From an uncultured Anaerolineae bacterium (GTDB lineage Bacteria > Chloroflexota > Anaerolineae > Aggregatilineales > UBA2796), in the NCBI GenBank assembly GCA_938005675.1, contig CALKXH010000037.1:1-44212 (forward strand): DNA of 44,212 nucleotides. Direction: 5' to 3'. Position numbers and translations under genes: made by a program. Below the pieces are notes generated by a model, which was not told where the DNA came from, searched no databases, and saw only the letters and a program-made list of their open reading frames with translations. Position 1 is the first letter of the stretch. Every line of letters begins with the position of its first letter. Of this stretch, positions 1,726 to 37,224 are shown piece after piece.

Positions 1726-2649
1726 TTAACCCTTCACGCCCGTGTAGCTGACCCCCTCGATGAAGAAGCGCTGGAAGATGAAGAAGATGACCGCCATCGG
1801 CAAGGTGGTGATGACCGAACCCGCCAGCATCAAGTCCCACTGGACGGCATCGCCCGTCACGCCGCGCAAAAAGGCGAGCGCCAACGGCAGCGTGTACAGG
1901 TCGCGGTTCAGGTTCAAGGCGATCAGCGGGCCTTGAAAGTCGTTCCAAGTGCCTTGAAAGGCGAAGATCGCCATCGCCGTGAGGGCTGGGATCGCCATCG
2001 GCAGGATGATCACGAAGAACATGCGGAAGCGGCTGGCGCCGTCGATCTCCGCCGCCTCTTCAATCTCGCGCGGGATGCTCTCGAAGAACTGCTTCATCAG
2101 GAAGATGCCGAACGCATCGGCGAAGTAGGGCACGAGCAGCGCCCAGTAGGTGTCGATCCAGCCCAGCTGGTTGAGGATCAGGTAGCGCGGGATCAGCAAG
2201 ACGATGCCCGGCACCATCAGCGTGCCGACCAGCGCCGCGAAGGCGAAGCCGCGTCCGGGAAAACGGATGCGCGCCAGCGCGTAGCCCGCCAGACTGTTGA
2301 ACAGGACGCGCATGATCGTCACAGTGATTGCGATGAAGAAACTGTTGAAGATGGCGCGCGGGAAGTTGATCTGCTGCGTGTTCAGCGCGCGCTCGTAACC
2401 TTGCAGCGTCCAGCTATAGGGCGTGCCATCGGCGCGGACGCCCGGCGTCAGGCGCATTGGGTTGGCGGCGATGTCGGGCAGCTCTTTGAACGAGTTCGCC
2501 ACCGCGAAGACGAAGGGCATGATCATCGCTAAGGCGAAGAGGATCAGGATGCTATAGGTCACCACGGCGCGGACGACCTTGCCCGTGTTGGGCGGCAAGG
2601 CGAAGCCCCGCGCGCTGAGAGGTTGGTGTGCGACTGCACTGGTGGACAT
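1726..2649 (-). CDS. Carbohydrate ABC transporter permease, MalG/UgpE type
   Basis: This 307-residue inner-membrane permease of the CUT1 family has six predicted membrane spans. The cytoplasmic EAA loop (EEAAEIDGASRFRMFF) binds the ATPase subunit, and the family-typical FQGTWNDFQGPL follows. It pairs with the MalF-type permease encoded 16 bp upstream to form the sugar channel. The start is ATG 2647-2649 with a strong GAAAGGAG site a few bases before it. No ATP-binding gene is found in the locus, so energy is probably supplied by a shared MsmX/UgpC-type ATPase encoded elsewhere. Neighbouring enzymes suggest a disaccharide or short oligosaccharide as substrate. Confidence 0.93.
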   Translation of the reverse strand: MSTSAVAHQPLSARGFALPPNTGKVVRAVVTYSILILFALAMIMPFVFAVANSFKELPDIAANPMRLTPGVRADGTPYSWTLQGYERALNTQQINFPRAIFNSFFIAITVTIMRVLFNSLAGYALARIRFPGRGFAFAALVGTLMVPGIVLLIPRYLILNQLGWIDTYWALLVPYFADAFGIFLMKQFFESIPREIEEAAEIDGASRFRMFFVIILPMAIPALTAMAIFAFQGTWNDFQGPLIALNLNRDLYTLPLALAFLRGVTGDAVQWDLMLAGSVITTLPMAVIFFIFQRFFIEGVSYTGVKG

Positions 2650-2665
2650 CTCAAGCTCCTTTCGG

Positions 2666-3745
2666 CTACTGCTGCACGGTCTTGCCGACCAGACGGCGCT
2701 GGATGACCGTGAAGACCGCGATGATCACGAACAGGACGAAGGCGAGCGCCGCGCCCAGCCCAGCTTGCGAGTCGCGCAGGTTGCGGAAGACGATCCAGGC
2801 GATGGTCTTGGTGGTGCCCGCCGGGTTGCCCTGCGAGATCACGTAAATCTGATCGAAGACTTGGAAGCAGCCGATCAAGCCGATGGTCAGCACGAAGAAA
2901 GTGGTCGGGCGCAGCATCGGCACGGTGATCAGGCGGAATTGCTGCCAGCGCGTGGCGCCGTCGACCGAAGCCGCCTCGTAGAGCTGGCGCGGGATATCCT
3001 GCAGGGCGGCGAGGAAGATCAGCATCATCGTGCCGGTCGTCGTCCAGATCGCCAAGAGCATGATCGCCAACATGGTGACCGACGGTCCGCTGATCCACTG
3101 CCAGATAGTCTGTCCGAGGATGGTGGTCTCGGTCATCCAAGCCGGCGCCGTGCGGATGGTCACGCCGAAGAGCCGTAAAAAGTTGTGGATGATGCCGTTG
3201 GCGTCGTTGATCCACGTCACGGGCGAGTACTGCAAGCCCAAGAAGTTCGCCACGCCCCCGATCACGCCGTTGATCACGCCGTTGCGGTTGAACAGCCACA
3301 GGAAGATCGTGGCGATCACGATTGAGGAGGTGATCGACGGGAAGTAGAAAGCGACGCGGAAAAAACCGCGAAAGCGCAGGAACTGCTGGTTGACGATGAA
3401 GGCTAAGACCAGCGCGAGGGCGGTTTGGGTCGGCACGACGCCCAGCGTGTAGTAGAAGGTGTTCTTGATGGCGACGAAGAACTCATCCCGCACGACCGTC
3501 GTGCCATCCAGCCCGAAGATGCGCTCATAGTTGCGCAAGCCGACGCCCTGCGCCTCGAAGGGCGGCTGCAAGCCGTTCCAGTTGGTGAAGCTGATCAGGA
3601 AGGCGCTGAAGAGCGGCAAAAAGATGAAGACCACCACGATGATCAGCGCGGGCAGGATGAAAGTGAAGCCGGCGGCGCGCTCTTGCCCTTTGGCGCTGAG
3701 TTGAAAACCGCCTCGCTTGCCGATAGAAGGCGCTGCGACTGCCAT
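2666..3745 (-). CDS. Carbohydrate ABC transporter permease, MalF/UgpA type
   Basis: This is the first permease subunit of the CUT1 sugar importer, 359 residues from the chosen start. A charged N-terminus precedes a first span (near residues 30-50), a periplasmic loop, and then the transporter core with the EAA loop YEAASVDGATRWQQF and a final pair of spans. An in-frame ATG 23 codons upstream at 3814 exists. I prefer 3745 because GGGAG lies about 9 bases before it and the extra N-terminal stretch does not look like a permease. It follows the binding-protein gene with a gap of about 100 bp and is cotranscribed with the MalG-type permease. Confidence 0.92.
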   Translation of the reverse strand: MAVAAPSIGKRGGFQLSAKGQERAAGFTFILPALIIVVVFIFLPLFSAFLISFTNWNGLQPPFEAQGVGLRNYERIFGLDGTTVVRDEFFVAIKNTFYYTLGVVPTQTALALVLAFIVNQQFLRFRGFFRVAFYFPSITSSIVIATIFLWLFNRNGVINGVIGGVANFLGLQYSPVTWINDANGIIHNFLRLFGVTIRTAPAWMTETTILGQTIWQWISGPSVTMLAIMLLAIWTTTGTMMLIFLAALQDIPRQLYEAASVDGATRWQQFRLITVPMLRPTTFFVLTIGLIGCFQVFDQIYVISQGNPAGTTKTIAWIVFRNLRDSQAGLGAALAFVLFVIIAVFTVIQRRLVGKTVQQ

Positions 3746-3842
3746 AGGATAAAGCTCCCTTCCCAAAGCGGTATTTTTGGCAAAAGCGCCTCGCCTGTGG
3801 TGGGCGAGGCGCATCCATAGCGTTACAGTTCAGAGGGCGCGC

Positions 3843-5057
3843 TCAACGCGAGGCGAGCACCTCGTTGCCGACGCGCTCGATCTCGGCCAAGGCGCCGCGC
3901 GCGGTCTGATTGCCCGCCATCACCAGCGAGAGCTGCTCGTTGACCTTATCCAGCACGGCTTGGAAGCCCGGCACGAACTGCCACTTGCGGGCGTACTCGG
4001 CGCCGTTCAGGTACGGCTCAAGGTTGGGGAACAGCTCCAGCCAGCCCTCGCGCAGCGAGGCGCGCGTGGGCATCGCCAAGCCCAAATCCGTCCACGCCTT
4101 CATGCCCTCGGCGCCAGTCAGGTAGTTGACGAACTTGATGGCGGCGTCGGGATTCTTCGCCTTCATCGGCACGGCGTAGCAGACCGTGAACGCCATGGTC
4201 GCCTTGCCGCCCGGGCCGGCGGGCAGCTCAACCGCCTTGTGCTTCAGGTCGGGGAACTGATCCTTCAGGTACGGCTCGATCCAGTTGCCCTCGAACGCCA
4301 TCGCCACCAAGCCCTTGCCGAACGCCTCGCCCGACCAGCCCACGCCTAGGTCGGCGGGCGTCTTGGCGAAGCCATCGAGGTACAGCCCGGTGTAGAACTC
4401 CATAGCTGCCTCGGCTTCGGGGCTGTTGATGGTCATCTTGGTGAACGCGTCGTCGGTCACCGAGCCACCTGCGCCGTAGAGGAAGGCGATCCAGCGGGCG
4501 AAGTCAGCTGGCACCACCACGCCAAAGACGCCGTCTTTGGTCAGCTTCTCAGCGGCGGCGCGCATCTCTTCCCACGTGGTCGGCGCGCTCAGACCGGCTG
4601 CTTCGAACATCTCGGTGTTGATCTGCAGGGCGAGGGTGGAGAAGTCCTTAGGCGGGCAGTAGAACTGACCGTTGGCGGTGAAAGCGTTGCGCAGGGCGGG
4701 GTAGAAGTCGTCGATGTCGGTGAGTTTCTCGCCGATGGGCATCAGGGCTTCGGCGCGCACGAGGTCGAGGAAGCGGAACGAGTCGACGTAGAAGACGTCC
4801 GGCGGCTCGCCGCCCGCCAGCGATTTCTGCAGCGTGGTATCATAGTCTGGCACTTGGTTCAGGGTGACCTGAATATCGGGGTTGGCGGCGTTCCAGTCGT
4901 CCACGATCTTCTGCAGGCGCTCGTTCTCCGACGGCGAGGATGACCAGCCCATCAGCACCAGGTTGACGGTCTGCGCGGCTTGCGCGCTAGGGGCGACGGC
5001 AACCGCGATCAGGGCGAGGGCGATTGCCAGAGCGAGGAAACGTAAAGACTTCTTCAT
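3843..5057 (-). CDS. Extracellular sugar-binding protein of a CUT1 ABC importer
   Basis: This 404-residue protein starts with a signal peptide (MKKS, long hydrophobic core, cleavage probably after SAQA near residue 27) without a lipobox cysteine. The mature part follows the family-1 solute-binding pattern: [16 protein letters not shown], then [23 protein letters not shown] and a C-terminal [11 protein letters not shown] segment. It should deliver sugar to the two permeases encoded downstream. The start is ATG 5055-5057 with AAGGAG upstream. Its promoter and operators lie in the short divergent gap to the phosphoglucomutase gene, so the LacI protein encoded nearby probably controls it. The exact sugar cannot be read from sequence; GH65 and pgmB point to an alpha-linked glucose disaccharide. 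Confidence 0.92.
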
Positions 5058-7081: not shown

Positions 7082-9250
7082 ATGATCTCTCCCGTTGATC
7101 GGCGCACATGGCTTGTCAGCGAAGCGCCTTTCAATCCCTTCAAGCTCCACCATACCGAGACGATCTTCACCGTCGGCAACGGCTTCATGGGCGTGCGGGG
7201 CACGTTTGAGGAAGGCTACAGCGGCGATATGCCCACCACGCTCGTCCACGGCATCTTCAACCACGCCGAGGGCGACCTCGTGCCGGATATCGTCAACTTG
7301 CCCAATCCGCTGCCCGTGCAAGTGCGGGTGGATGGCGAGGCGTTCCATATGACGACGGGCAAAGTGCTGGGCTTTCGGCGGACGCTCGATCTCAAGCGCG
7401 CCGCCCTGACCCGCGAAGTGCTGTGGCGCACTTCGCAGGGCGTTGTGGTCAAGCTGACCTTCGAGCGCTTCGCCAGCCTGACCGACCAGCACCTCCTGTT
7501 GCAGCGCGTGCGCGTGCGGGCGCTGCTCGGCTCGCCCCGAATCGAAATCCGCTCCTCTGTTGACGCCCAAGTGACCAATCTGGGCGTCCAGCACCTCGCC
7601 GATGTTCACAGGCAGGTCGATGCCGCCGAAATTCTGGTCACGGCGCGCACGACGCACAGCAATTACGGCATTGCCATCTGCGCCGCCCACAGCCTGAGCG
7701 CTGAGTCGAGCCTCGAAGCCGACGGCGAGAGCCTGCGCTACACCTTCAACCTGCCGCACGAGAACGAGGTCAGCCTGACCAAGATCAGCGCCATCTACAC
7801 GACCCGTCAAGGCGCTCAGCCCGCCGAGCTGGCGCAAAAAGCCGCGCGCGCCGCCCTGACGAAGGGCTACGAGGCGCTCTTCGCCGCCCATTGCGCCGCC
7901 TGGGAGCAGTACTGGCACACCTCTGACGTGCAGATCGAGGGCGATGAGTTAGCGCAGCGCGCCATCCGCTTCAGCACCTACCACGTCTTGATCGCCGCGC
8001 CCCGCCATGACGAGCGAGTCAGCATCGGCGCCAAGACCCTCTCCGGGCTGGGCTACAAGGGTCACGTCTTCTGGGATACCGAGCTGTTCATGCTGCCCCT
8101 GCTGATCGTGACTCAGCCCAAGCTGGCGCGCAACCTGCTGCTGTACCGCTATCACAACCTCGAGGGCGCTCGCAACAAGGCGCGCGCCTACGGCTACGAA
8201 GGCGCCATGTTCCCTTGGGAGAGCGCCGACACCGGCGAGGAGACCACCCCGCAATGGTCGCACCCACAGCCCGACGGGACGCGCATCCGCATCTGGACGG
8301 GCGATCACGAGCAACACATCAGCTCGGATATCGCCTACGCCGTGCTGCAGTACTGGCGCTGGACGGGCGACGATGAGTTCTTCGTCAAGTACGGCGCTGA
8401 GATCGTGCTGGATACCGCCGTCTTCTGGGGCTGCCGCGCCGAGTACAACGCCGCGCAGGATCGCTACGAGCTCTCTATGCAAATCGGGCCCGACGAGTAC
8501 CACGAGAACGTCAACAACAGCGCCTTCACCAACAGCATGGTGCGCTGGCACTTGCAGCAAGCCCTCGCCGCCCGCGACTGGCTGCTGACTCACCACCGCG
8601 AGGCGGGCGAGGCGCTTCTAGCGCGCTTGAACATCACGGAGGCGCGCTGCGCCAAATGGGCGGACATCGCCGCCAAAATGTACATCCCGCGCGACGCTGA
8701 GACGGGCGTCTTGGAGCAGTTCGATGGCTTCTTCGGGCTGGAGCGCTTCGATCTGACTCATTGGCAGCCGCGCACCGTCAACCTCGATTGGATTCTCGGT
8801 CACGAGCGGGCGCAGCGCACGATGGTCATCAAGCAGGCGGATGTCGTGATGCTGATGGCGCTCTTGGGCGATCAGTTCGGCGCGCTTGAGCTGCAGCAGG
8901 CGAACTGGGACTTCTACTATCCGCTGGTCGATCATGGCTCGTCGCTCAGCCCCTCGACGCACGCTTGGGTGGCGGCGCGGCTGGGCTTGCTGGAGGAGGC
9001 GTACGACCTGTTCCTGTACGCCTCGCACATCGATCTGGACGACTTGAAAGGCAACGTCCGCGATGGCATCCATGCCGCCGCCTGCGGCGGAGTCTGGCAG
9101 GCGGTCGCTTTCGGGTTCGTGGGCATGAGCCTCGATGAGCGCGGCGAGCTGCAGATCAAGCCCAAGTTGCCCGCCCATTGGCGGAGCGTGACCTTGCGCG
9201 CCTACCATCGCGGTCAGCTCAAGACCGTTCGTCTGACGGCGGAGAGCTAG
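7082..9250 (+). CDS. Glycoside hydrolase family 65 disaccharide phosphorylase
   Basis: GH65 enzymes cleave alpha-glucosides such as maltose, trehalose, kojibiose or nigerose with phosphate and inversion, giving beta-glucose 1-phosphate plus glucose. The 722-residue protein has the N-terminal beta-sandwich (FTVGNGFMGVRGTFEEGY), the (alpha/alpha)6 barrel with WDTELFMLP, the catalytic acid E472 in GPDEYHENVNN, the IKQADVVMLM segment, the phosphate-site region YYPLVDHGSSLSPSTHA and a short C-terminal sheet. No signal peptide is seen, so it is cytoplasmic. The product is the substrate of the nearby beta-phosphoglucomutase, which together with the transporter makes a complete ATP-sparing pathway. 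Which disaccharide is used cannot be decided by eye. GAGG precedes the ATG. Confidence 0.92.
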   Translation: MISPVDRRTWLVSEAPFNPFKLHHTETIFTVGNGFMGVRGTFEEGYSGDMPTTLVHGIFNHAEGDLVPDIVNLPNPLPVQVRVDGEAFHMTTGKVLGFRRTLDLKRAALTREVLWRTSQGVVVKLTFERFASLTDQHLLLQRVRVRALLGSPRIEIRSSVDAQVTNLGVQHLADVHRQVDAAEILVTARTTHSNYGIAICAAHSLSAESSLEADGESLRYTFNLPHENEVSLTKISAIYTTRQGAQPAELAQKAARAALTKGYEALFAAHCAAWEQYWHTSDVQIEGDELAQRAIRFSTYHVLIAAPRHDERVSIGAKTLSGLGYKGHVFWDTELFMLPLLIVTQPKLARNLLLYRYHNLEGARNKARAYGYEGAMFPWESADTGEETTPQWSHPQPDGTRIRIWTGDHEQHISSDIAYAVLQYWRWTGDDEFFVKYGAEIVLDTAVFWGCRAEYNAAQDRYELSMQIGPDEYHENVNNSAFTNSMVRWHLQQALAARDWLLTHHREAGEALLARLNITEARCAKWADIAAKMYIPRDAETGVLEQFDGFFGLERFDLTHWQPRTVNLDWILGHERAQRTMVIKQADVVMLMALLGDQFGALELQQANWDFYYPLVDHGSSLSPSTHAWVAARLGLLEEAYDLFLYASHIDLDDLKGNVRDGIHAAACGGVWQAVAFGFVGMSLDERGELQIKPKLPAHWRSVTLRAYHRGQLKTVRLTAES

Positions 9251-13749: not shown

Positions 13750-16700
13750 TCACTGAGCGAGCGGCAGACGGACGATCATGCGCGTGCCGACGCCAACTTC
13801 GCTCTGCGCCGCGATGCTGCCGCCGTGCGCCTCGACGATCTCGCGAGCGATGGTCAGCCCAAGCCCGGTGCCGCGCTGAGTCCCTAAGTTGGCGCGGAAA
13901 AACGGCTCGAAGATGTGCTTGAGCGACTTAGCATCGATGCCGACGCCGCTATCCTGCACCTCCGCGACTGCCTCGGCGCCCTCGCACCGCAGGCTCAGGC
14001 AGACCGTGCCGCCCGTCTCTGTATAGTTTAGCGCATTGACCAGCAAATTGGTGAAAACTTGGGTCAAACGCTCAGGGTCGGCTAAGGCAGGCACCGCTAT
14101 GGCGAGCAGATCGCTCAGCAGCCGAACGCCTTTCTCCTCGAAGTGCGGGCGCTGCACCTCCAAGATGCTCGCCAAGAGCTCATCGAGGCGCAACGGCTCG
14201 CGCTTGAGGGCGATCATGCCGCGCTCGAAGCGCGTCACATCGAGCAAGTCCTCCACCAGCAGCTGGATGCGGCGCGTGACCTGCTCGATCACGGCGAGGT
14301 GAGTCTGGGCGGCTTCGGGCTGGCGGCGCAGGAGGTACAAGCGCATTTTGAGGTTGGTCAGCGGCGTGCGCAGCTCGTGGGCGGCGTTGGCGATGAAGCG
14401 ATCTTTCTGCTCCTGCAGCGCCTTCTCCTTGCTGATATCGCGGATCAAGGCGACCGTCCCGATGTGCTTGCTGCGCAGGTTCGTCACCTTAGTGACTGAG
14501 ACGTGCGCCGCGAAGGCGCTGCCATCTTTGCGGGGGTATTCGATCACTCCCTGCCAAGCGCCGTCGCGCTCAAGGGCTCTCAGAATCTCTCGCTGTGAGG
14601 GGGACGCCTCGGAGACGGGGATCATCTCGGCGAGGCTGAGGAAGGTCTGCCCGACGATCTGGCTCTCCTGCGTGCCGAAGAGCCGATGAAAGGCGGGGTT
14701 GGCGTAGGTGGCGCGCCATGCATCTTCTTGAAACTCGAAGAAGATGACGCCCTCTTCCATCGCATCGAGGATGGCGCGCAAGCGCGCGCGCTCGATCTCC
14801 AGCTCGGCGGTGCGCAGACGCACATGGCGCTCCAGCTCTTTGGCGTTGCGCTCGATGGTCTGGTACAGGTCGGCGTTCTGGATGGCGATGGCGGCGTAGC
14901 CGATCAGCGCCTTGAGGCGCTCGGCGTGTTCGCGCGTGAAGTAGTTGGGCGTTGCGCTATCGAAGCTGATCACGCCGATGGTGCGCCCCTCCAGCTCGAT
15001 CAGCAAGCTCAGATAGGATCGAATCCACTCAGTGCCTTCGATGGGCAGCCAGTCGGGATCGGCGGCGGTGTCGGGGATCAGCTCGATGCCATCCGCGCAC
15101 TGTGAGCGCTCTAGACGCGAGCGTGCATCCAAATGGGATGTGATAGCCTCCCAGCGCCTATGGATCGACTCAGCCGAGCGCCCGCGCGCTGCCCGCACCT
15201 CGCCCGCCTCCCCTTTCAGCAGCACGATCCAGCTGCCCTCGCACGGCACGAGGCGCTCGGCGTATTCGAGGATCGTCTCCAGCACGCTCTGCACCTGCAG
15301 CGAGCGAGTCAGGGCGATGGAGGCGTCGGCGAGCGTCTTGAGGAAGGCGGCGTGGCGGCGCTCGGCTTGTTGAGCGCGTTCGCGCTCGGTCACGTCGAAG
15401 GCGACGGCAATGCCGCCGATGATCGCGCCCGCGTCGTCCCGCAGAGGCGTCAAATAGAGCTCTATGGCGCTGGTATCTTGCAGCTCAAAAGTCAGGCGCT
15501 GAGACTCGCCTTGCAGCGCCTTGCGCAAGTAGGCGCCGATGAAACGATCTTCCAGCGCGCTTTGCCCAACTTTCGGGCGCAGATGCGGATAGCGCTGATT
15601 GACCAGCGCGCCCTCGAGGAAGTCGATCACGCCCTCGCGGTTGAAGGTGAAGAGGATCAGCGGCGCGTTGTTCATCACGAAGCGCAGGCGCGCCTCGCTC
15701 TCGCGCAGGGCGCGGTTGATGGCGGCACGGCGCAGCGTGCTGGCGAAGACGTCGGCGGCGATAGAGAGCAAGGCGGCATCTTCGGGCTGCCAGGGGCGCG
15801 TCTCGCTGACCGATGAGAAGACCAAGCAGCCGCGCAGGACGCCGTTATTGCGCATGGCGATGCCCATCAGCGTGCGCACGCCGCGCCCCCTGAGCACGCG
15901 GCCCACAGGATCGTCGGGCGGCAAGGCTTGGATGTCGGGGACGAGCATCCAGTCCTGCTGTGTGAAGGTCTCCACGGCGGCGCGATAGATCGCCTCAGCG
16001 TCCACATCGGGGTGGTAGCCCGCTATGTGAGGAGCTTCCCACAGGTGCGTGATGGCGAGCCAGGTCGGCGCTCCGCACAGATCGACTAGGGCGGCGCGCT
16101 CGGCGCCGATGAACTCCGCCAGGCGCTGCAGAGCGCTCATGATCCGCTCGTCGACCTCGCCGATGGGCAGGCTGACCAACTGCGCCGAGATGGTGGCGAG
16201 CAGCCGCTCTAGGGCGAGGCGCTGCTGCAAGCGCCGTTGGGCTAAGACGCGCTCAGTGGCGTCGCGCAGGGCGGCGAGGTAAGCCGTCTGCCCCTGCCAC
16301 TCAGTTGTGACGAGCTGCATCTCGACGACGCATTCGCGCCCGTCGGCTGTGCGCAGGTCGAGTTCGGTCGTGCGCCCCAGCACCAGCGGAAAGCCGAAGG
16401 GCAGCCCGATCAGCGCCTCGACCGAGCGCCCGAAGAGCGCTCCCGCCGACTGATTGGCGAAGCGGATGATCCCCTCTTGGTCGATCACCAACATGCCGTC
16501 GGCGTTGTGGTTGATCAAGTTATGGAGCAGGCGGCTGCTATCGGAGAAGGCTTGCAGGTTCTGCTCCAGAAGGCGCTGGGTGCGCCGCTGCTGCACGGCG
16601 AAGTCCACAATTTGGCGCAGCATGTAGGGCTCGCTCTGGACGTAATCGAAGGGCAGGATGTGGGGCAACTCGGCGAGGGGCTGAGCGGCGGCGCGCTCTT

Positions 16701-16953
16701 CGGGGCGCACCAAGAGGATGATCGGCACTTCGGGCGATTGCGCCAAGTAGCTGAGCCAGTCCGCGCAGCAGCGCCTCAGCTCGTCGTATCTCACCAAGAC
16801 GAGGTCGGGCGCTAGGGCGTGGAGGGTGGCGGGCGAGGCGCTGTTCAGGAAATAGATCAGCGGCTCAGGCAGGGCTGCATCCTGCGCGATTCGGCGCATC
16901 TCAGTCAGATCAGCGTCAGGGGCAGCTAGGAGAATTAAGCGATAAGCGTCCAT
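13750..16953 (-). CDS. Multi-PAS/GAF histidine kinase with N-terminal pseudo-receiver
   Basis: This 1067-residue soluble kinase has domains in this order: receiver-like fold (about 1-125), PAS (135-235), GAF (250-420), PAS (425-530), GAF (540-705), PAS (730-850), HisKA with H859 in NAAHELRTPL, and HATPase_c (N-box NLLVNALNY, DSGVGI, GTGLGLTIA). The receiver-like part lacks the acceptor Asp (PDLVLVRYDELR) and the conserved Lys (FDYVQSEP), so it should not be phosphorylated. No membrane span is present. It begins 78 bases after kaiC on the same strand. In the cyanobacterial clock CikA also pairs a kinase with a pseudo-receiver that binds KaiB, so this is a good candidate for the clock output or input kinase. 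No response regulator is encoded next to it. Confidence 0.9.
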   Translation of the reverse strand: MDAYRLILLAAPDADLTEMRRIAQDAALPEPLIYFLNSASPATLHALAPDLVLVRYDELRRCCADWLSYLAQSPEVPIILLVRPEERAAAQPLAELPHILPFDYVQSEPYMLRQIVDFAVQQRRTQRLLEQNLQAFSDSSRLLHNLINHNADGMLVIDQEGIIRFANQSAGALFGRSVEALIGLPFGFPLVLGRTTELDLRTADGRECVVEMQLVTTEWQGQTAYLAALRDATERVLAQRRLQQRLALERLLATISAQLVSLPIGEVDERIMSALQRLAEFIGAERAALVDLCGAPTWLAITHLWEAPHIAGYHPDVDAEAIYRAAVETFTQQDWMLVPDIQALPPDDPVGRVLRGRGVRTLMGIAMRNNGVLRGCLVFSSVSETRPWQPEDAALLSIAADVFASTLRRAAINRALRESEARLRFVMNNAPLILFTFNREGVIDFLEGALVNQRYPHLRPKVGQSALEDRFIGAYLRKALQGESQRLTFELQDTSAIELYLTPLRDDAGAIIGGIAVAFDVTERERAQQAERRHAAFLKTLADASIALTRSLQVQSVLETILEYAERLVPCEGSWIVLLKGEAGEVRAARGRSAESIHRRWEAITSHLDARSRLERSQCADGIELIPDTAADPDWLPIEGTEWIRSYLSLLIELEGRTIGVISFDSATPNYFTREHAERLKALIGYAAIAIQNADLYQTIERNAKELERHVRLRTAELEIERARLRAILDAMEEGVIFFEFQEDAWRATYANPAFHRLFGTQESQIVGQTFLSLAEMIPVSEASPSQREILRALERDGAWQGVIEYPRKDGSAFAAHVSVTKVTNLRSKHIGTVALIRDISKEKALQEQKDRFIANAAHELRTPLTNLKMRLYLLRRQPEAAQTHLAVIEQVTRRIQLLVEDLLDVTRFERGMIALKREPLRLDELLASILEVQRPHFEEKGVRLLSDLLAIAVPALADPERLTQVFTNLLVNALNYTETGGTVCLSLRCEGAEAVAEVQDSGVGIDAKSLKHIFEPFFRANLGTQRGTGLGLTIAREIVEAHGGSIAAQSEVGVGTRMIVRLPLAQ

Positions 16954-17031: not shown

Positions 17032-18543
17032 TCACCTATCGGCAAGATCGGGGGCGTCATCTTGGAATAAGTTTGTTAGACGATCCAGCTCATCCTTATT
17101 GAGGTAGCTGAACTGCCCCGACAGGATGCCCGATACGTTGCGGAAAGGCTTGCCGATGTGCATCCCCGTGCCGTCGATAGTGAACTCGCGGATATCCTTA
17201 TCGTGGAGCGAGCCGCGCATCTTCAAGATGGTCAGCCCGCGCCGCATCTCGCCGTAGTACTCCACGTAGCGCAGCAGGATGATCGAATCGGTGATGGTGC
17301 TGATGTGCGCCTCGGTGATCGAGGTGCCGCCCAGCAGATTGGGCGTGGTGGCGGTGAACAAGCCGGCGATCTCTTCGTGTTTGATGAACGAGGTCAGGTC
17401 GATGACGAACTCGCGGAAGCCGCGCCGCGTGCCGACGCGCTCCAAGGCGGAGAGGCTATCAATTGCCACGCGAGTGGGACGGTAAGCGCTGATCTCCGAC
17501 TTGATGCGCAGGAGGTGATCCTCCAGCCCGCTGATCTCAGGGTACTCAGCGACCACGCGCAGGAGTCCGTCGGCTTCCATGCGCGGGAAGTCCACGTTCC
17601 AGCCGATGGCGTTGCGGAAGAGCTGCTCGCGGCTCTCCTCAAAGGCGAACAGCAAGCAGCGCTCGCCTTGCGCCACGCCGCCCGCCAAGAAAGTGGTGGC
17701 GACGAGCGTCTTGCCGGTGCCAGTCGCGCCGGAGACGAGGATGATCGAGTCGCGGAAGAAGCCGCCGCCGCACATCTGATCGAGTTGGGCGCTGCCGGAG
17801 CTGATGCGCAAGTCGGAGGATTTCTGCTTCAGCTCGATGGCGGAGAGCGGCATGACCACCACGCCCTGATCGGGCGTCACGGTGAAGGGGAACTCGCCCT
17901 TGCGATGCGAGGTGCCGCGGAACTTGAGCACCTCGATGGTGCGGCGGCGTTTCTCGTCCTCCAGCACGTTGCGCAGGATGATCACGTTATCGGCGACGAA
18001 TTCCTCCACGCTGTGGCGCGCCACGGCGCCGTACTCGCTATCGCGCTCGCTGGTCACCAGCGCCGTGACGCCCAGCGCCTTCAGGGCGCTGGTCAGGCGG
18101 AGGAGCTCGGCGCGCACCGTGCCGTGGTCGGCGAACTGGCTGAAGACGGCGCTGAGCGAGTCGATCACCAAGCGACGGGCGTTCAGGCGGCGGACGGCGT
18201 GCTCGATGCGCGCCAGCAGCCCGCCGAAATCGTAGCTGCCGACCACCACCTGACTGTCAGGCACGTAGGAGGCATCCACGAACGCCCATTTGTTCTCGGC
18301 TTCCCACTGGGCGATATCCCAGCCGAAGCCGCGCATGTTACGCCGAATGTCTTCAGGCAGCTCTTCAAAGGTGACGAAGATGCCCGCCTCGCCGTGCTGA
18401 ACGCCTTGCGCGAGGAAGTTACAGGCGAAGACCGTCTTGGCGCTGCCAGCGCTGCCGCTCAGCAGCGTGACGCGCCCCTTAGGCAAGCCGCCGTTGGCGA
18501 TGTGATCGAAGCCTTCGATGTAAGTCGGCAGTTTCTCCAACAT
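17032..18543 (-). CDS. kaiC: KaiC, double-domain circadian-clock ATPase/autokinase
   Basis: KaiC is a hexameric RecA-like protein whose CI ring hydrolyses ATP slowly and whose CII ring phosphorylates and dephosphorylates itself. The 503-residue protein has both domains. CI shows GSAGSAKT (K36), catalytic E60-E61 and VIDSLS. CII shows GATGTGKT, E302-E303 and AIDSLS. The phosphorylation pair is retained as S415-T416 in AHISTITDSI, matching S431/T432 of Synechococcus. The C-terminus (GILSGQFSYLNKDELDRL and an acidic end) resembles the A-loop and tail that KaiA pulls on. The CI Walker A has Ala where Gly normally precedes Lys. The ATG overlaps the kaiB stop by one base, implying coupled translation. 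Confidence 0.96.
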   Translation of the reverse strand: MLEKLPTYIEGFDHIANGGLPKGRVTLLSGSAGSAKTVFACNFLAQGVQHGEAGIFVTFEELPEDIRRNMRGFGWDIAQWEAENKWAFVDASYVPDSQVVVGSYDFGGLLARIEHAVRRLNARRLVIDSLSAVFSQFADHGTVRAELLRLTSALKALGVTALVTSERDSEYGAVARHSVEEFVADNVIILRNVLEDEKRRRTIEVLKFRGTSHRKGEFPFTVTPDQGVVVMPLSAIELKQKSSDLRISSGSAQLDQMCGGGFFRDSIILVSGATGTGKTLVATTFLAGGVAQGERCLLFAFEESREQLFRNAIGWNVDFPRMEADGLLRVVAEYPEISGLEDHLLRIKSEISAYRPTRVAIDSLSALERVGTRRGFREFVIDLTSFIKHEEIAGLFTATTPNLLGGTSITEAHISTITDSIILLRYVEYYGEMRRGLTILKMRGSLHDKDIREFTIDGTGMHIGKPFRNVSGILSGQFSYLNKDELDRLTNLFQDDAPDLADR

Positions 18544-18848
18544 TATTTTTGCTCCAAGCTCTCGTCTTCAATGCCCTCAGACGGAAAGGGGATATCGAGC
18601 GCCTTCAAGACGCCTCGCACATCCGAGAGGTCGCCCACCAAGCGGCGGCGCGGCAAGGGCAGCTCGCGGATGACCGTCGGCGTGGCGAGGATTTTCTCTT
18701 CCTCCGCCAATTCAGGATTCTCCAGAACGTCCACGATGGTGATTTGGTAGTTGCCCGCTAAATATTTATCGCAGAGGTCGTATAAATTGTAAATGGCGCG
18801 CTCTGTGCGTACCGTTTTCCCTGTAACATAGAGTTTAAGTATGTACAT
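18543..18848 (-). CDS. kaiB: KaiB clock protein
   Basis: KaiB is a fold-switching thioredoxin-like protein that binds the KaiC CI ring and counters KaiA. The 101-residue protein has the hallmark segments YILKLYVTGKT, the central IVDVLENPELAEEEKILATPTVI and the end RRRLVGDLSDVRGVLKALDI. Length and spacing fit the family, with an acidic C-terminal tail as in cyanobacterial KaiB. It begins 2 bases after the stop of the PAS protein gene and its stop overlaps the kaiC start (TAATG), so the three genes form one tightly coupled transcript. Confidence 0.96.
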   Translation of the reverse strand: MYILKLYVTGKTVRTERAIYNLYDLCDKYLAGNYQITIVDVLENPELAEEEKILATPTVIRELPLPRRRLVGDLSDVRGVLKALDIPFPSEGIEDESLEQK

Positions 18849-18850
18849 GG

Positions 18851-19780
18851 CTAATCTTCTCTAGCGGGCGTGGGCGGCGTAGTGCGTAGAATGCCGAGCG
18901 CATAGGTGCGATAGAACGAGACGAGGTAGCCCATCAGCTCCAGCGCTGCCAAACGCCCCTCTTCGGCGTAGAGTTCGGCTTTGGGCGCGGTTTGGTCGCT
19001 CATCAAAGCGCGCATGGCGCGCACGTGCAGCTCGATCACATCGCGCGGCAAGACCCGCAAGACGCCCAGCTGAGCCGCCAACTGGCGCAACGCCTCCGAG
19101 CGCTCGCGCGTCTCGCCGAAGAGGCGCTGCTCAACGGCGCGCTCAAGCACGGCGCGGTACTGATCGGCGAAGCGCTCGAAGAGGTGCGGCTGGCTCTGGC
19201 TGAGCGGGCGGGCGCCGAAGAGCTGCTCGGTGATGGGCGTCGCGGGGGCGTTCAGGCGCGCCACCGTCTCGATCTCGTGCTGCGCGCGCGCTTGCAGTTC
19301 TTGGCGGGCGTTCAGCACGCGCTCGGTGATATCGATATGGCGCACCAACAAGCCCGCGGGCGCGCTCTCAGCCGCCGTGCGGATCGGCGTGACGTGCAGC
19401 AAGAACCAGCGCTCTTGATCGGGCGCGTGGCAGGGATACTCCAGCTGAAAACTAGGGAGCGCGCCCTCTAGCACGGCGCGCATCCCCTCCAGCGTGCTGA
19501 TCGCCTCGACGCTCTCAGGCGCGCTTGCCCGTCGGCAGACCTCGAAATAATTCGTGCCGACGTCGGTGTGCGCGGTGTTCGGATCGCCGTTTTGACGGGC
19601 GAAATCCCGCCACGCAGCGTTGACCGCCAAGATTGTGCCTTGCGCATCGAGGATGGCGGCGTGATCGGGCAGCGCATCCAGAATTGCCTGTGCTAACACC
19701 TGTTCGCTGAACCTAGAGTCTATCACTGTGCTGCTCTCAGTCTGGGGAACATTGGACGTTTGCCCCGTTGAAACGTCCAA
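18851..19780 (-). CDS. PAS protein with KaiA/RsbU-like C-terminal domain
   Basis: The protein of up to 309 residues has one PAS domain (about 28-152: ILDALPDHAAILDAQGTILA through GLLVRHIDITER), a short helical linker, and a helical domain at about 199-295. The latter has FERFADQYRAVLERAV, RDVIELHVRAMRAL and EEGRLAALELMGYLVSFYR. This order of helices and the D-x-I-E-L-H and L-x-x-M/L-x-x-Y-R positions resemble the KaiA C-terminal domain, which shares its four-helix fold with the RsbU N-terminal domain. It is the first gene of the kaiBC operon, 2 bases before kaiB, so a KaiC-directed, signal-sensing KaiA substitute is plausible but inferred. The start is uncertain: TTG 19780 lies inside a hairpin, while GTG 19726 also keeps the whole PAS domain. 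Confidence 0.85.
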   Translation of the reverse strand: MDVSTGQTSNVPQTESSTVIDSRFSEQVLAQAILDALPDHAAILDAQGTILAVNAAWRDFARQNGDPNTAHTDVGTNYFEVCRRASAPESVEAISTLEGMRAVLEGALPSFQLEYPCHAPDQERWFLLHVTPIRTAAESAPAGLLVRHIDITERVLNARQELQARAQHEIETVARLNAPATPITEQLFGARPLSQSQPHLFERFADQYRAVLERAVEQRLFGETRERSEALRQLAAQLGVLRVLPRDVIELHVRAMRALMSDQTAPKAELYAEEGRLAALELMGYLVSFYRTYALGILRTTPPTPARED

Positions 19781-34650: not shown

Positions 34651-37224
34651 ATGATCAAGCCCATTATCACCGTCTCTGTGGTGCCCAATCTGCCCAGCAG
34701 CTTGGAGCGCCTGCTGGAGCTTGCCTACAACTTGCGCTGGTCGTGGAATTTGGAGACTCTGGCGCTCTTTCGGCGGCTCGACCGCGACCTGTGGGAGAAG
34801 TGCGGTCACAATCCCGTCCTGATGCTCGGACAGATCGATCAGCGCCAGCTCAACGCGGCAACCAACGACGAAGCCTTCATGGCGCACTATGATCGCGTCT
34901 GCCAAGATTTCGACCGCTACATGAGCCAGAGCACCTCGACGTGGTACGCCAAGCGCTATCCCGAAGCGCCGCGCACGCCGCTGATCGCCTATTTCTCGAT
35001 GGAATTCGGCTTGACGGAGTGCTTGCGTAACTACAGCGGCGGTTTGGGCGTCCTCTCTGGCGATCACCTCAAGAGCGCCTCCGATCTGGGCTTGCCGCTG
35101 ATCGGCGTCGGCTTGCTCTACCAAGAGGGCTACTTCGCCCAGTACCTCAACAACGACGGCTACCAGCAAGAGGCGTATCCGATGAACGATTACGCCAATC
35201 AGCCGGTCCGCCGCGTCCTGAACGCCGACGGGCAGCCCGTGATCGTCAAAGTGCCGCTGCCGGGGCGCTTGCTCTACGCCCAAGCTTGGATCGTGCAGGT
35301 CGGGCGCGTCTCGCTGTACCTGCTGGATACCAACATCCCAGAGAACACCCTGCCCGAAGACCGCGACCTGACCGATAGGCTCTACGGCGGAGATCGGCGG
35401 CAGCGCATCCGCCAAGAGATTCTGATGGGCATCGGCGGCATTCAGTTGCTGCGCCTGCTGAACCTGAATCCGACCGTCTACCACATGAACGAGGGACACA
35501 GCGCCTTCATGGGCTTGGAGCGCATCCGCCTGCTGATGGAGGCGCACCCGGAGCTGACTTTCGATCAGGCGCGCGAGATTTGCGCAGCCAGCACGCTCTT
35601 CACCACGCATACGCCCGTGCCCGCCGGCTTGGAGCGCTTCGGCTTCGATCTGATCGACGAGCATTTCGGCTACCTGTGGCCTCAACTCAAGCTCAGCCGC
35701 GAGCAATTCCACGATCTAGGGCGCGAGAACATGGGCAACTACGACCTGTTCAGCATGCCCGTCCTCGCCATCAGGCTCTCCAACTACATGAACGGGGTCT
35801 CAAAGCTGCACGGCGTGGTCAGCCGTCGGCTGTTCGGCTGGATGTATCCGAACGTGCCGCAAGACGACGTGCCGATCGGGCACGTGACCAACGGCATCCA
35901 CGTCGAGACGTGGGTCAGCCAAGAGATGGCGTCGCTCTACGACCGCTACCTCGATCCGCTCTGGCGCGAAGACCCGACCGATCCCAACATCTGGTGGGAT
36001 GTCGATAAAATCCCCGACGCCGAGCTGTGGCGCACGCACGAGCGCCGCCGCGAGCAGCTGGTCGCCTTCTGCCGCGAGCGCCTGCGCGAGCAGTCCATCA
36101 AGCTGGGCTTGCCCGCCGCCGAGATCGAGTTGGCGGAGGAAGTCCTCAGCCCCGACGCGCTGACCATCGGCTTTGCGCGGCGCTTCGCCACCTACAAGCG
36201 CGCCACGCTGATCCTGCGCGATAAAGAGCGCCTCGCGCGCATCCTGAACAACCCCGACCGCCCCGTCCAGCTGATCTTCGCCGGCAAAGCCCATCCGCAC
36301 GATACGCCCGGCAAGGAGCTCATCCGCGAGATCGTCAATACCTCGCGCCTGCCAGAGTTCCGCCACAGCATCGTCTTCCTAGAGAACTACGATATGGCGA
36401 TCACGCGCATGATGCTGCAAGGCTGCGACGTCTGGCTGAACAATCCGCGCCGCCCAGAGGAGGCGAGCGGCACCAGCGGCATGAAAGCCATCTACAACGG
36501 CGGCTTGAACTTCAGCACGCTGGACGGCTGGTGGGATGAAGCCTACGATCCGCAGGTCGGCTGGGAGATCGGGCGCGGCGAGGAATATCCGCCCGAACAG
36601 TGGGCGCATCAGGACTACCTCGAAGCCCAAGCGCTCTACAGCATCCTCGAAAACGACATCGTGCCGACTTTCTACACCCGCTCGCGCGATGGCTTGCCCC
36701 GCGAGTGGATCGCGCGCATGAAGAACAGCATCCGCAAGCTGGCGCCCTTCTTCAACACGCACCGCATGGTCGCCGAGTACGCCGAGCGCTACTACATGCC
36801 CGCCTACGAGGGCTATCAGCGCCTGACCCAGCCCGATCTCGCGCGCGGGGTGGCGCTCGCCCAATGGAAGCAGAAGGTCTACAGCCAGTGGAACAACGTG
36901 CAAGTCCTCAAGGTGACCACCTCGACCGATGAGCTGAAGGTCGGCAGCGCGCAGGAGATCACGGCGGTGGTGCAGCTGGGCAGCCTGACGCCCGACGACG
37001 TGACCGTGCAGGTCTACTACGGCGATCTGGATACGCACGGCAACATCGTCAAGGGCAACGCCGTCAACATGCAGCCCGCTGAGTCGAACGGCGGCGGGAC
37101 GTACACGTTCAAGGCGCAGCTCGTCCACCACACGACGGGCAATCAAGGCATCTCGGTGCGCATCCTGCCCAACCACGAAGATTTGCCGACGCCATTCCTA
37201 CGCGGCTTGATCCGCTGGGCATAG
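34651..37224 (+). CDS. glgP: Alpha-glucan (glycogen/maltodextrin) phosphorylase, GT35
   Basis: This PLP-dependent enzyme removes glucose from alpha-1,4-glucans as alpha-glucose 1-phosphate. The 857-residue protein belongs to the bacterial/archaeal branch with an N-terminal DUF3417 domain (LERLLELAYNLRWSWNLETLALF). It has AYFSMEFGLTECLRNYSGGL, YHMNEGHSAFMGLER, TTHTPVPAGLERF, GFARRFATYKRATL and the PLP lysine K612 in GTSGMKAIYNGGLNFSTLDGW. The C-terminal 100 residues add a beta domain. AGGAG lies 8 bases before the ATG. Together with the GH65 pathway it shows a cell that gains sugar phosphates by phosphorolysis. Confidence 0.95.
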   Translation: MIKPIITVSVVPNLPSSLERLLELAYNLRWSWNLETLALFRRLDRDLWEKCGHNPVLMLGQIDQRQLNAATNDEAFMAHYDRVCQDFDRYMSQSTSTWYAKRYPEAPRTPLIAYFSMEFGLTECLRNYSGGLGVLSGDHLKSASDLGLPLIGVGLLYQEGYFAQYLNNDGYQQEAYPMNDYANQPVRRVLNADGQPVIVKVPLPGRLLYAQAWIVQVGRVSLYLLDTNIPENTLPEDRDLTDRLYGGDRRQRIRQEILMGIGGIQLLRLLNLNPTVYHMNEGHSAFMGLERIRLLMEAHPELTFDQAREICAASTLFTTHTPVPAGLERFGFDLIDEHFGYLWPQLKLSREQFHDLGRENMGNYDLFSMPVLAIRLSNYMNGVSKLHGVVSRRLFGWMYPNVPQDDVPIGHVTNGIHVETWVSQEMASLYDRYLDPLWREDPTDPNIWWDVDKIPDAELWRTHERRREQLVAFCRERLREQSIKLGLPAAEIELAEEVLSPDALTIGFARRFATYKRATLILRDKERLARILNNPDRPVQLIFAGKAHPHDTPGKELIREIVNTSRLPEFRHSIVFLENYDMAITRMMLQGCDVWLNNPRRPEEASGTSGMKAIYNGGLNFSTLDGWWDEAYDPQVGWEIGRGEEYPPEQWAHQDYLEAQALYSILENDIVPTFYTRSRDGLPREWIARMKNSIRKLAPFFNTHRMVAEYAERYYMPAYEGYQRLTQPDLARGVALAQWKQKVYSQWNNVQVLKVTTSTDELKVGSAQEITAVVQLGSLTPDDVTVQVYYGDLDTHGNIVKGNAVNMQPAESNGGGTYTFKAQLVHHTTGNQGISVRILPNHEDLPTPFLRGLIRWA

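Follow-up and report, generated by a model that had tools for sequence, protein, structure and literature searches.

A PAS-bearing member of the KaiA3 domain family encoded directly upstream of kaiBC in an uncultured Anaerolineae bacterium: a candidate KaiA substitute with an exchanged sensor

The analyzed window, a stretch of 44,212 nucleotides from an uncultured Anaerolineae bacterium (Chloroflexota), carries a kai operon whose first gene encodes what is probably a KaiA3-family activator, with a PAS domain in the place of the receiver, stimulating KaiC under the control of that PAS domain. An earlier note on this DNA had proposed the protein as a candidate KaiA substitute, a reading that is supported by gene order, domain make-up, predicted fold, family membership, linkage to kaiBC, conserved residues, and the phosphosite and tail of the KaiC partner. 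Its nearest characterised relative is cyanobacterial KaiA3, not canonical KaiA or RsbU. The features of the operon are as follows.

18851-19780, minus strand: PAS-KaiA3-type protein (ORF, 309 aa), first gene of the operon
19316-19681, minus strand: PAS domain, residues 34-155 (PAS_4, PF08448, 43.5 bits, above the Pfam cut-off)
19253-19327, minus strand: signalling linker helix, residues 152-176, leaving the PAS domain as an unbroken helix in the AlphaFold model
18893-19189, minus strand: predicted KaiA-C-like four-helix domain, residues 198-296 (profile, AlphaFold, Foldseek and residue alignment)
19025-19045, minus strand: motif RDVIELH, residues 246-252, with H252 aligned to KaiA H237
18908-18964, minus strand: motif EEGRLAALELMGYLVSFYR, residues 273-291, with R276, Y290 and R291 aligned to KaiA R262, Y276 and R277
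18543-18848, minus strand: kaiB, 101 aa (PF07689, 89.5 bits, above the cut-off)
17032-18543, minus strand: kaiC, 503 aa, two ATPase domains (PF06745, and TIGR02655 at 627 bits, above the cut-off)
17296-17301, minus strand: KaiC S415-T416, corresponding to phosphosites S431/T432 in KaiC of S. elongatus
17035-17130, minus strand: KaiC C-terminal segment (GILSG..., conserved ELDRLxxLF tail), where the KaiA-like domain presumably docks
13750-16953, minus strand: PAS/GAF histidine kinase (domain matches), 78 bases past kaiC

The genes of the operon are tightly packed. The stop codon of the PAS protein (18851-18853) lies 2 bases from the kaiB ATG at 18848, and the reading frames of kaiB and kaiC share 1 base; the ORF, the Pfam match and the coordinates thus bore out the earlier description of a PAS domain followed by a helical domain with RDVIELH and EEGRLAALELMGYLVSFYR, encoded 2 bases before kaiB. 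Translation could start at TTG 19780 or at GTG 19726 (residue 19), the latter having the better-spaced purine stretch. The kaiC gene encodes the sole strongly matching double-domain KaiC of the assembly. The histidine kinase past it is possibly an output or input partner of the clock; a receiver-like N-terminus was suspected in this kinase and none was detected, while its first PAS domain (residues 145-241) scored 99 bits against the subfamily formed by the first PAS of the PAS-PAS-KaiA proteins of relatives, which suggests that sensor modules are shared. Sugar ABC transporter genes, a family 65 glycosyl hydrolase and a glycogen-phosphorylase-like gene (1726-5057, 7082-9250, 34651-37224) are found on the same contig.

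In the full-length AlphaFold model (pLDDT 88), the PAS domain leads through the linker helix into a helical bundle. The top structural matches of this model were PAS/LOV structures, such as the PAS domain of the sigma-factor regulator Rv1364c (3k3c/3kx0). By inspection, the window PAS lacks the LOV flavin-cysteine motif (NCRFLQ-like), leaving direct light sensing, one of the options raised in the earlier note, without support. Moreover, no match to the reaction centre family PF00124 was obtained in the assembly of this organism (94% complete), so that the clock would serve a non-phototroph. Our guess is that redox state or a metabolite is a likelier PAS signal than light.

Outside the PAS domain, nothing in the protein was recognised by Pfam or NCBIfam at E < 1. 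AlphaFold2, run on residues 156-309 together with 58 natural homologues, predicted a helical bundle (pLDDT 89.6, pTM 0.80), the helices of which span residues 198-221, 226-240, 245-261 and 265-296 in the full-length model. When 350,542 PDB chains were searched with Foldseek, the KaiA C-terminal domain 1q6a ranked first (probability 0.99) and KaiA accounted for eight of the 12 best matches, with a TM of 0.76 to the 91-residue KaiA structure 1r5q. Foldseek E-values for KaiA were weak (0.09-0.8, and no match of any kind fell below 0.05), and the argument from fold consequently rests on rank and consistency rather than on any single score. On this basis the C-terminal domain is predicted to adopt the KaiA-C-like four-helix fold, in agreement with the KaiA-like domain claimed from the letters.

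Sequence comparison, taken alone, would link the domain only weakly to canonical KaiA. The canonical model PF07688 gave no match at E < 1 in the PAS protein and none in 301 genomes of the phylum, with the control recovered, and a phmmer search of the PDB with the single C-terminal domain returned chance matches only. A profile of the near family of the window (A1) placed four KaiA-C chains at the head of 177,635 PDB sequences (E 0.00096 to 0.074); the broader profiles A3 and A4 scored KaiA worse (E 0.079 and 0.79) and their lists were headed by a chance helical match, SHERP (2x43). The profile-profile score to KaiA exceeded the best of 300 shuffles by a narrow margin (24.5 vs. 23.4). In the reciprocal direction, the Pfam KaiA model was applied to 14 cyanobacterial genomes. 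In most of these it recovered canonical KaiA, with values near 1e-63, and six of its seven best matches below the cut-off were members of the family sharing the window domain.

The residue pattern was examined in an alignment of 120 family members. Invariant positions of KaiA include Y198, H237, R262, Y276, R277, D260 and D267, of which R262, Y276 and R277 sit in the dimer interface (PMC8113500). The first five were retained in 109, 110, 115, 120 and 120 of the 120 members, respectively, and D260 and D267 were replaced by Glu. The dimer-interface residues R262, L272, Y276 and R277 correspond to R276, L286, Y290 and R291 of the window protein, and were retained in 115 to 120 of the members. The window protein therefore shares with canonical KaiA (S. 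elongatus 1r8j, T. elongatus 1q6a, Anabaena 1r5q) the predicted four-helix fold, the residues Y198, H237, R262, Y276 and R277, and the place 5' of kaiBC, whereas it falls below Pfam recognition, stands apart on a long branch, lacks a pseudo-receiver and is changed at F224 and D242.

A closer counterpart is KaiA3 (Synechocystis Sll0485 and its orthologues), which consists of a receiver domain and a KaiA-like C-terminus and is encoded 5' of kaiB3, usually with kaiC3 as well (PMC11372060). KaiA3 interacts with KaiC3 and raises its phosphorylation (Koebler et al. 2024, PMC11372060), an oscillator of KaiA3, KaiB3 and KaiC3 has been proposed, and S. elongatus KaiA is unable to replace KaiA3 (PMC11372060). 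The window domain belongs to the same C-terminal family: in a quick tree based on few columns it joined the KaiA3-type domains of cyanobacteria, separate from canonical KaiA, and in alignment A4 it is 35% identical to the Microcystis KaiA3-type domain, Microcystis taking the place of Synechocystis in this comparison. The window also matches the kaiA3-kaiB3-kaiC3 gene order and has a KaiC3-type partner with a Ser-Thr phosphosite. It differs in the N-terminus, a PAS domain instead of a NarL-type receiver, and in its non-cyanobacterial host; with the receiver replaced, the protein was filed as a PAS-bearing member of the KaiA3 domain family rather than as KaiA3 proper. The Roseiflexus, Crocosphaera and Microcystis loci in our dataset were of the KaiA3 kind, the Microcystis locus being a kaiA3-kaiB pair without kaiC, as described (PMC11372060). 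The earlier note knew of no described function for similar proteins at other kai loci; one is described for the family through KaiA3 (PMC11372060), the PAS form excepted. Chloroflexus and Roseiflexus are already on record as having KaiA3 orthologues, and both kaiABC in other bacteria and variable N-termini have been reported (PMC8113500). KaiA-like proteins outside cyanobacteria were therefore known; no PAS-, GAF- or MASE3-linked KaiA was found in the open-access literature searched, which covers few subscription papers.

The domain is conserved beside kaiBC. With the C-terminal domain alone as query, 151 related genomes yielded the window and 10 strong matches (E < 1e-8), each immediately 5' of kaiB. 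A wider profile detected it in 34 of 400 genomes of the phylum, chiefly at kaiBC, along with some orphan second copies. These orphans, receiver-KaiA-like proteins without adjoining kaiBC (L040-L044, L057 and L195, phylum family f30), come from genomes that mostly hold a second, PAS-PAS form at kaiBC. A public scan of one genome per species (84,980 species), again with the C-terminal domain only, returned at least 80 loci; it was built on a single conserved peptide pattern and is no census. Among the 80 loci listed, a same-strand kaiB lay directly 3' of the domain in 76, more than chance would give, and was followed by kaiC in 63. By record title, in which bin errors are possible, the carriers were Chloroflexota, Cyanobacteriota, Desulfobacterota, Magnetococcales, purple sulphur bacteria, Zixibacteria, Planctomycetota, Spirochaetales and one Helarchaeota bin. 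In the last (L103, titled Candidatus Helarchaeota archaeon LW55_61), on a contig assigned to an Asgard archaeon, kaiB and kaiC come after a receiver-KaiA-like gene; this may be a binning error.

Within the related genomes, the association was restricted to one type of KaiC. KaiB was matched in 24 of the 151 genomes, and the domain was present at 10 of the 11 kaiB loci (window included) whose KaiC is at least 59% identical to that of the window; one further carrier, L175, stops short of kaiC. None of the kaiB loci of relatives with KaiC2-like genes (29-38% identity) or without kaiC had it, indicating that the domain is tied to one KaiC type and not to kaiB in general. In three of the loci without the domain (L161, L162, L165), two kaiB genes lie in tandem after a KaiC2-like gene whose product is 34-38% identical to KaiC of the window. 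L173/L187, a near relative, has kaiBC and lacks the domain. Loss of the KaiC tail at this locus was considered and rejected, as the L173 fragment had ended early and the longer L187 has the tail.

The N-terminal part of the family proved variable. According to in-house profiles, with a Pfam check on 18 proteins, the sensor was a receiver in 81 of the 120 members (counted as loci, redundancy included), PAS-PAS in 16, a single PAS of the window's type in six, receiver-PAS-PAS in four and MASE3-GAF in two; the rest had other PAS forms, or, in a few cases, no assignment. The receiver and PAS states require at least eight changes on the KaiC tree, which, together with the variety of N-termini, indicates a constant effector with a swapped sensor. 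The two MASE3 fusions, both from Desulfobacteraceae (L117, 3696-5309, and L133), join the KaiA-like domain to a GAF-like domain and to the membrane sensor MASE3 (316 bits), immediately 5' of kaiB and kaiC, as in a membrane-bound clock activator. In the KaiA-like proteins of L030 and L106 the N-terminus looks GAF-like by eye only and had no Pfam match; L106, titled Proteobacteria, is near-identical to L030, which is of the window's phylum.

The KaiC partner clusters with KaiCs from kaiA3 loci and retains the Glu pairs in each of its two ATPase domains; its CI P-loop reads AGSAKTV, vs. SGTGKTL in S. elongatus KaiC, and its CII P-loop is standard. The tail comprises 32 residues, led by GILSG and bearing the acidic pattern ExDR(L/I)xxLF, which recurs with small variations across 69 compared KaiCs (net tail charge -1 to -6, vs. 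0 in S. elongatus). On the side of the activator, M241, one of the KaiC-contact or rhythm-critical positions of KaiA, is retained in the window protein, while D242 is Arg and F224 is Gly; across the family D242, a KaiC contact, is mostly Lys or Arg, and F224 is likewise Gly. If activator and tail have exchanged charges in this way, the failure of S. elongatus KaiA to replace KaiA3 would be accounted for.

By homology to KaiA3 and KaiA, the window protein would bind and stimulate KaiC. Its four-helix domain would dimerise as that of KaiA does, and the dimer would capture the short tail at the C-terminus of KaiC, whose gene is the second one downstream, holding the autoinhibitory A-loop out and favouring phosphorylation of S415/T416; KaiB, on phosphorylated KaiC, would later sequester the KaiA-like protein. 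Judging from the architecture only, the PAS domain may alter the geometry of the dimer via the linker helix, tuning its activity by the state of an internal ligand, redox or a cofactor, which would give the KaiBC timer a direct input.

The changes at F224 and D242 would also suit an adaptor that does not stimulate the kinase, but docks on KaiC or KaiB and passes the PAS signal in or the state of the clock out, for instance to the downstream histidine kinase, with KaiC phosphorylating by itself. Several KaiCs autophosphorylate in the absence of KaiA (PMC5520375), and a histidine kinase follows kaiC, as in the window, in 24 of 50 loci with room for one, about half. This reading is nevertheless unlikely, given that the close homologue KaiA3 does stimulate KaiC3 (PMC11372060) and that the window KaiC is short-tailed, without the long extension of a KaiA-independent KaiC. 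Such an extension is found in Rhodobacter, where a KaiBC-only timer operates (PMC10076222); like the window, that system has kaiBC outside cyanobacteria, whereas the window combines a short-tailed KaiC with a KaiA-like partner, and the KaiC2-like proteins of relatives, which have no KaiA-like partner, carry long coiled C-terminal extensions (four tails read).

A stress regulator of the RsbU-N/RsbP kind, with a PAS sensor and an RsbU-type helical domain that binds an RsbT-like kinase, and with a place beside kaiBC that is incidental or has a regulatory meaning at a different level, is more improbable still. The KaiA-C fold is common to RsbU-N (PMC11372060), the N-terminal domain of B. subtilis RsbU (1w53, 2j6y) has a similar PxxxIxxIH pattern, and the PAS of Rv1364c is among the best matches of the window PAS. 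The earlier note had called the domain KaiA/RsbU-like, and the link to RsbU proved much weaker than that to KaiA: KaiA led both by sequence (E 0.00096) and by fold rank, whereas RsbU (1w53) reached E 0.57 in the A1 search and was outside the Foldseek top 50. An hhalign comparison with RsbU-N gave a 22-column match on par with shuffles, PF08673 did not match the protein, and no PP2C phosphatase follows the helical domain, past which the protein ends. Stress-operon context is absent, and the position at kaiB in 76 of the 80 loci listed argues further against this reading. That the protein is a PAS sensor unrelated to KaiA, with a merely similar-looking helical domain and a different cause for its co-transcription with kaiBC, is hardly credible: taken singly, the sequence scores against KaiA are marginal, but fold, residue pattern, reciprocal Pfam matches and the KaiA-like architecture of the receiver-bearing members concur.

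With a KaiA3-family activator as the preferred reading, the view of Kai systems outside cyanobacteria may change. They are usually described as timers built on kaiBC or kaiC that have no KaiA and probably work as hourglasses (PMC10076222, PMC10278575), yet the activator piece occurs at kaiBC in many phyla with varied sensors, and clocks thought to be KaiA-less may have one. Among the relatives of the window, a KaiA3-type activator with exchangeable sensors adjoins nearly every short-tailed kaiBC examined. Tentatively, and with slightly more doubt than confidence, we propose that most short-tailed non-cyanobacterial KaiC systems called KaiA-less have a KaiA3-type activator with a freely exchanged sensor (receiver, PAS, PAS-PAS, receiver-PAS-PAS or MASE3-GAF), each lineage wiring its own signal into a complete KaiABC-type oscillator. 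An activator of this type beside kaiBC reduces the question of self-sustained clocks in such bacteria to a three-protein in-vitro test, and the sensor-swapped KaiA3-type activators would constitute a natural series of clock inputs.
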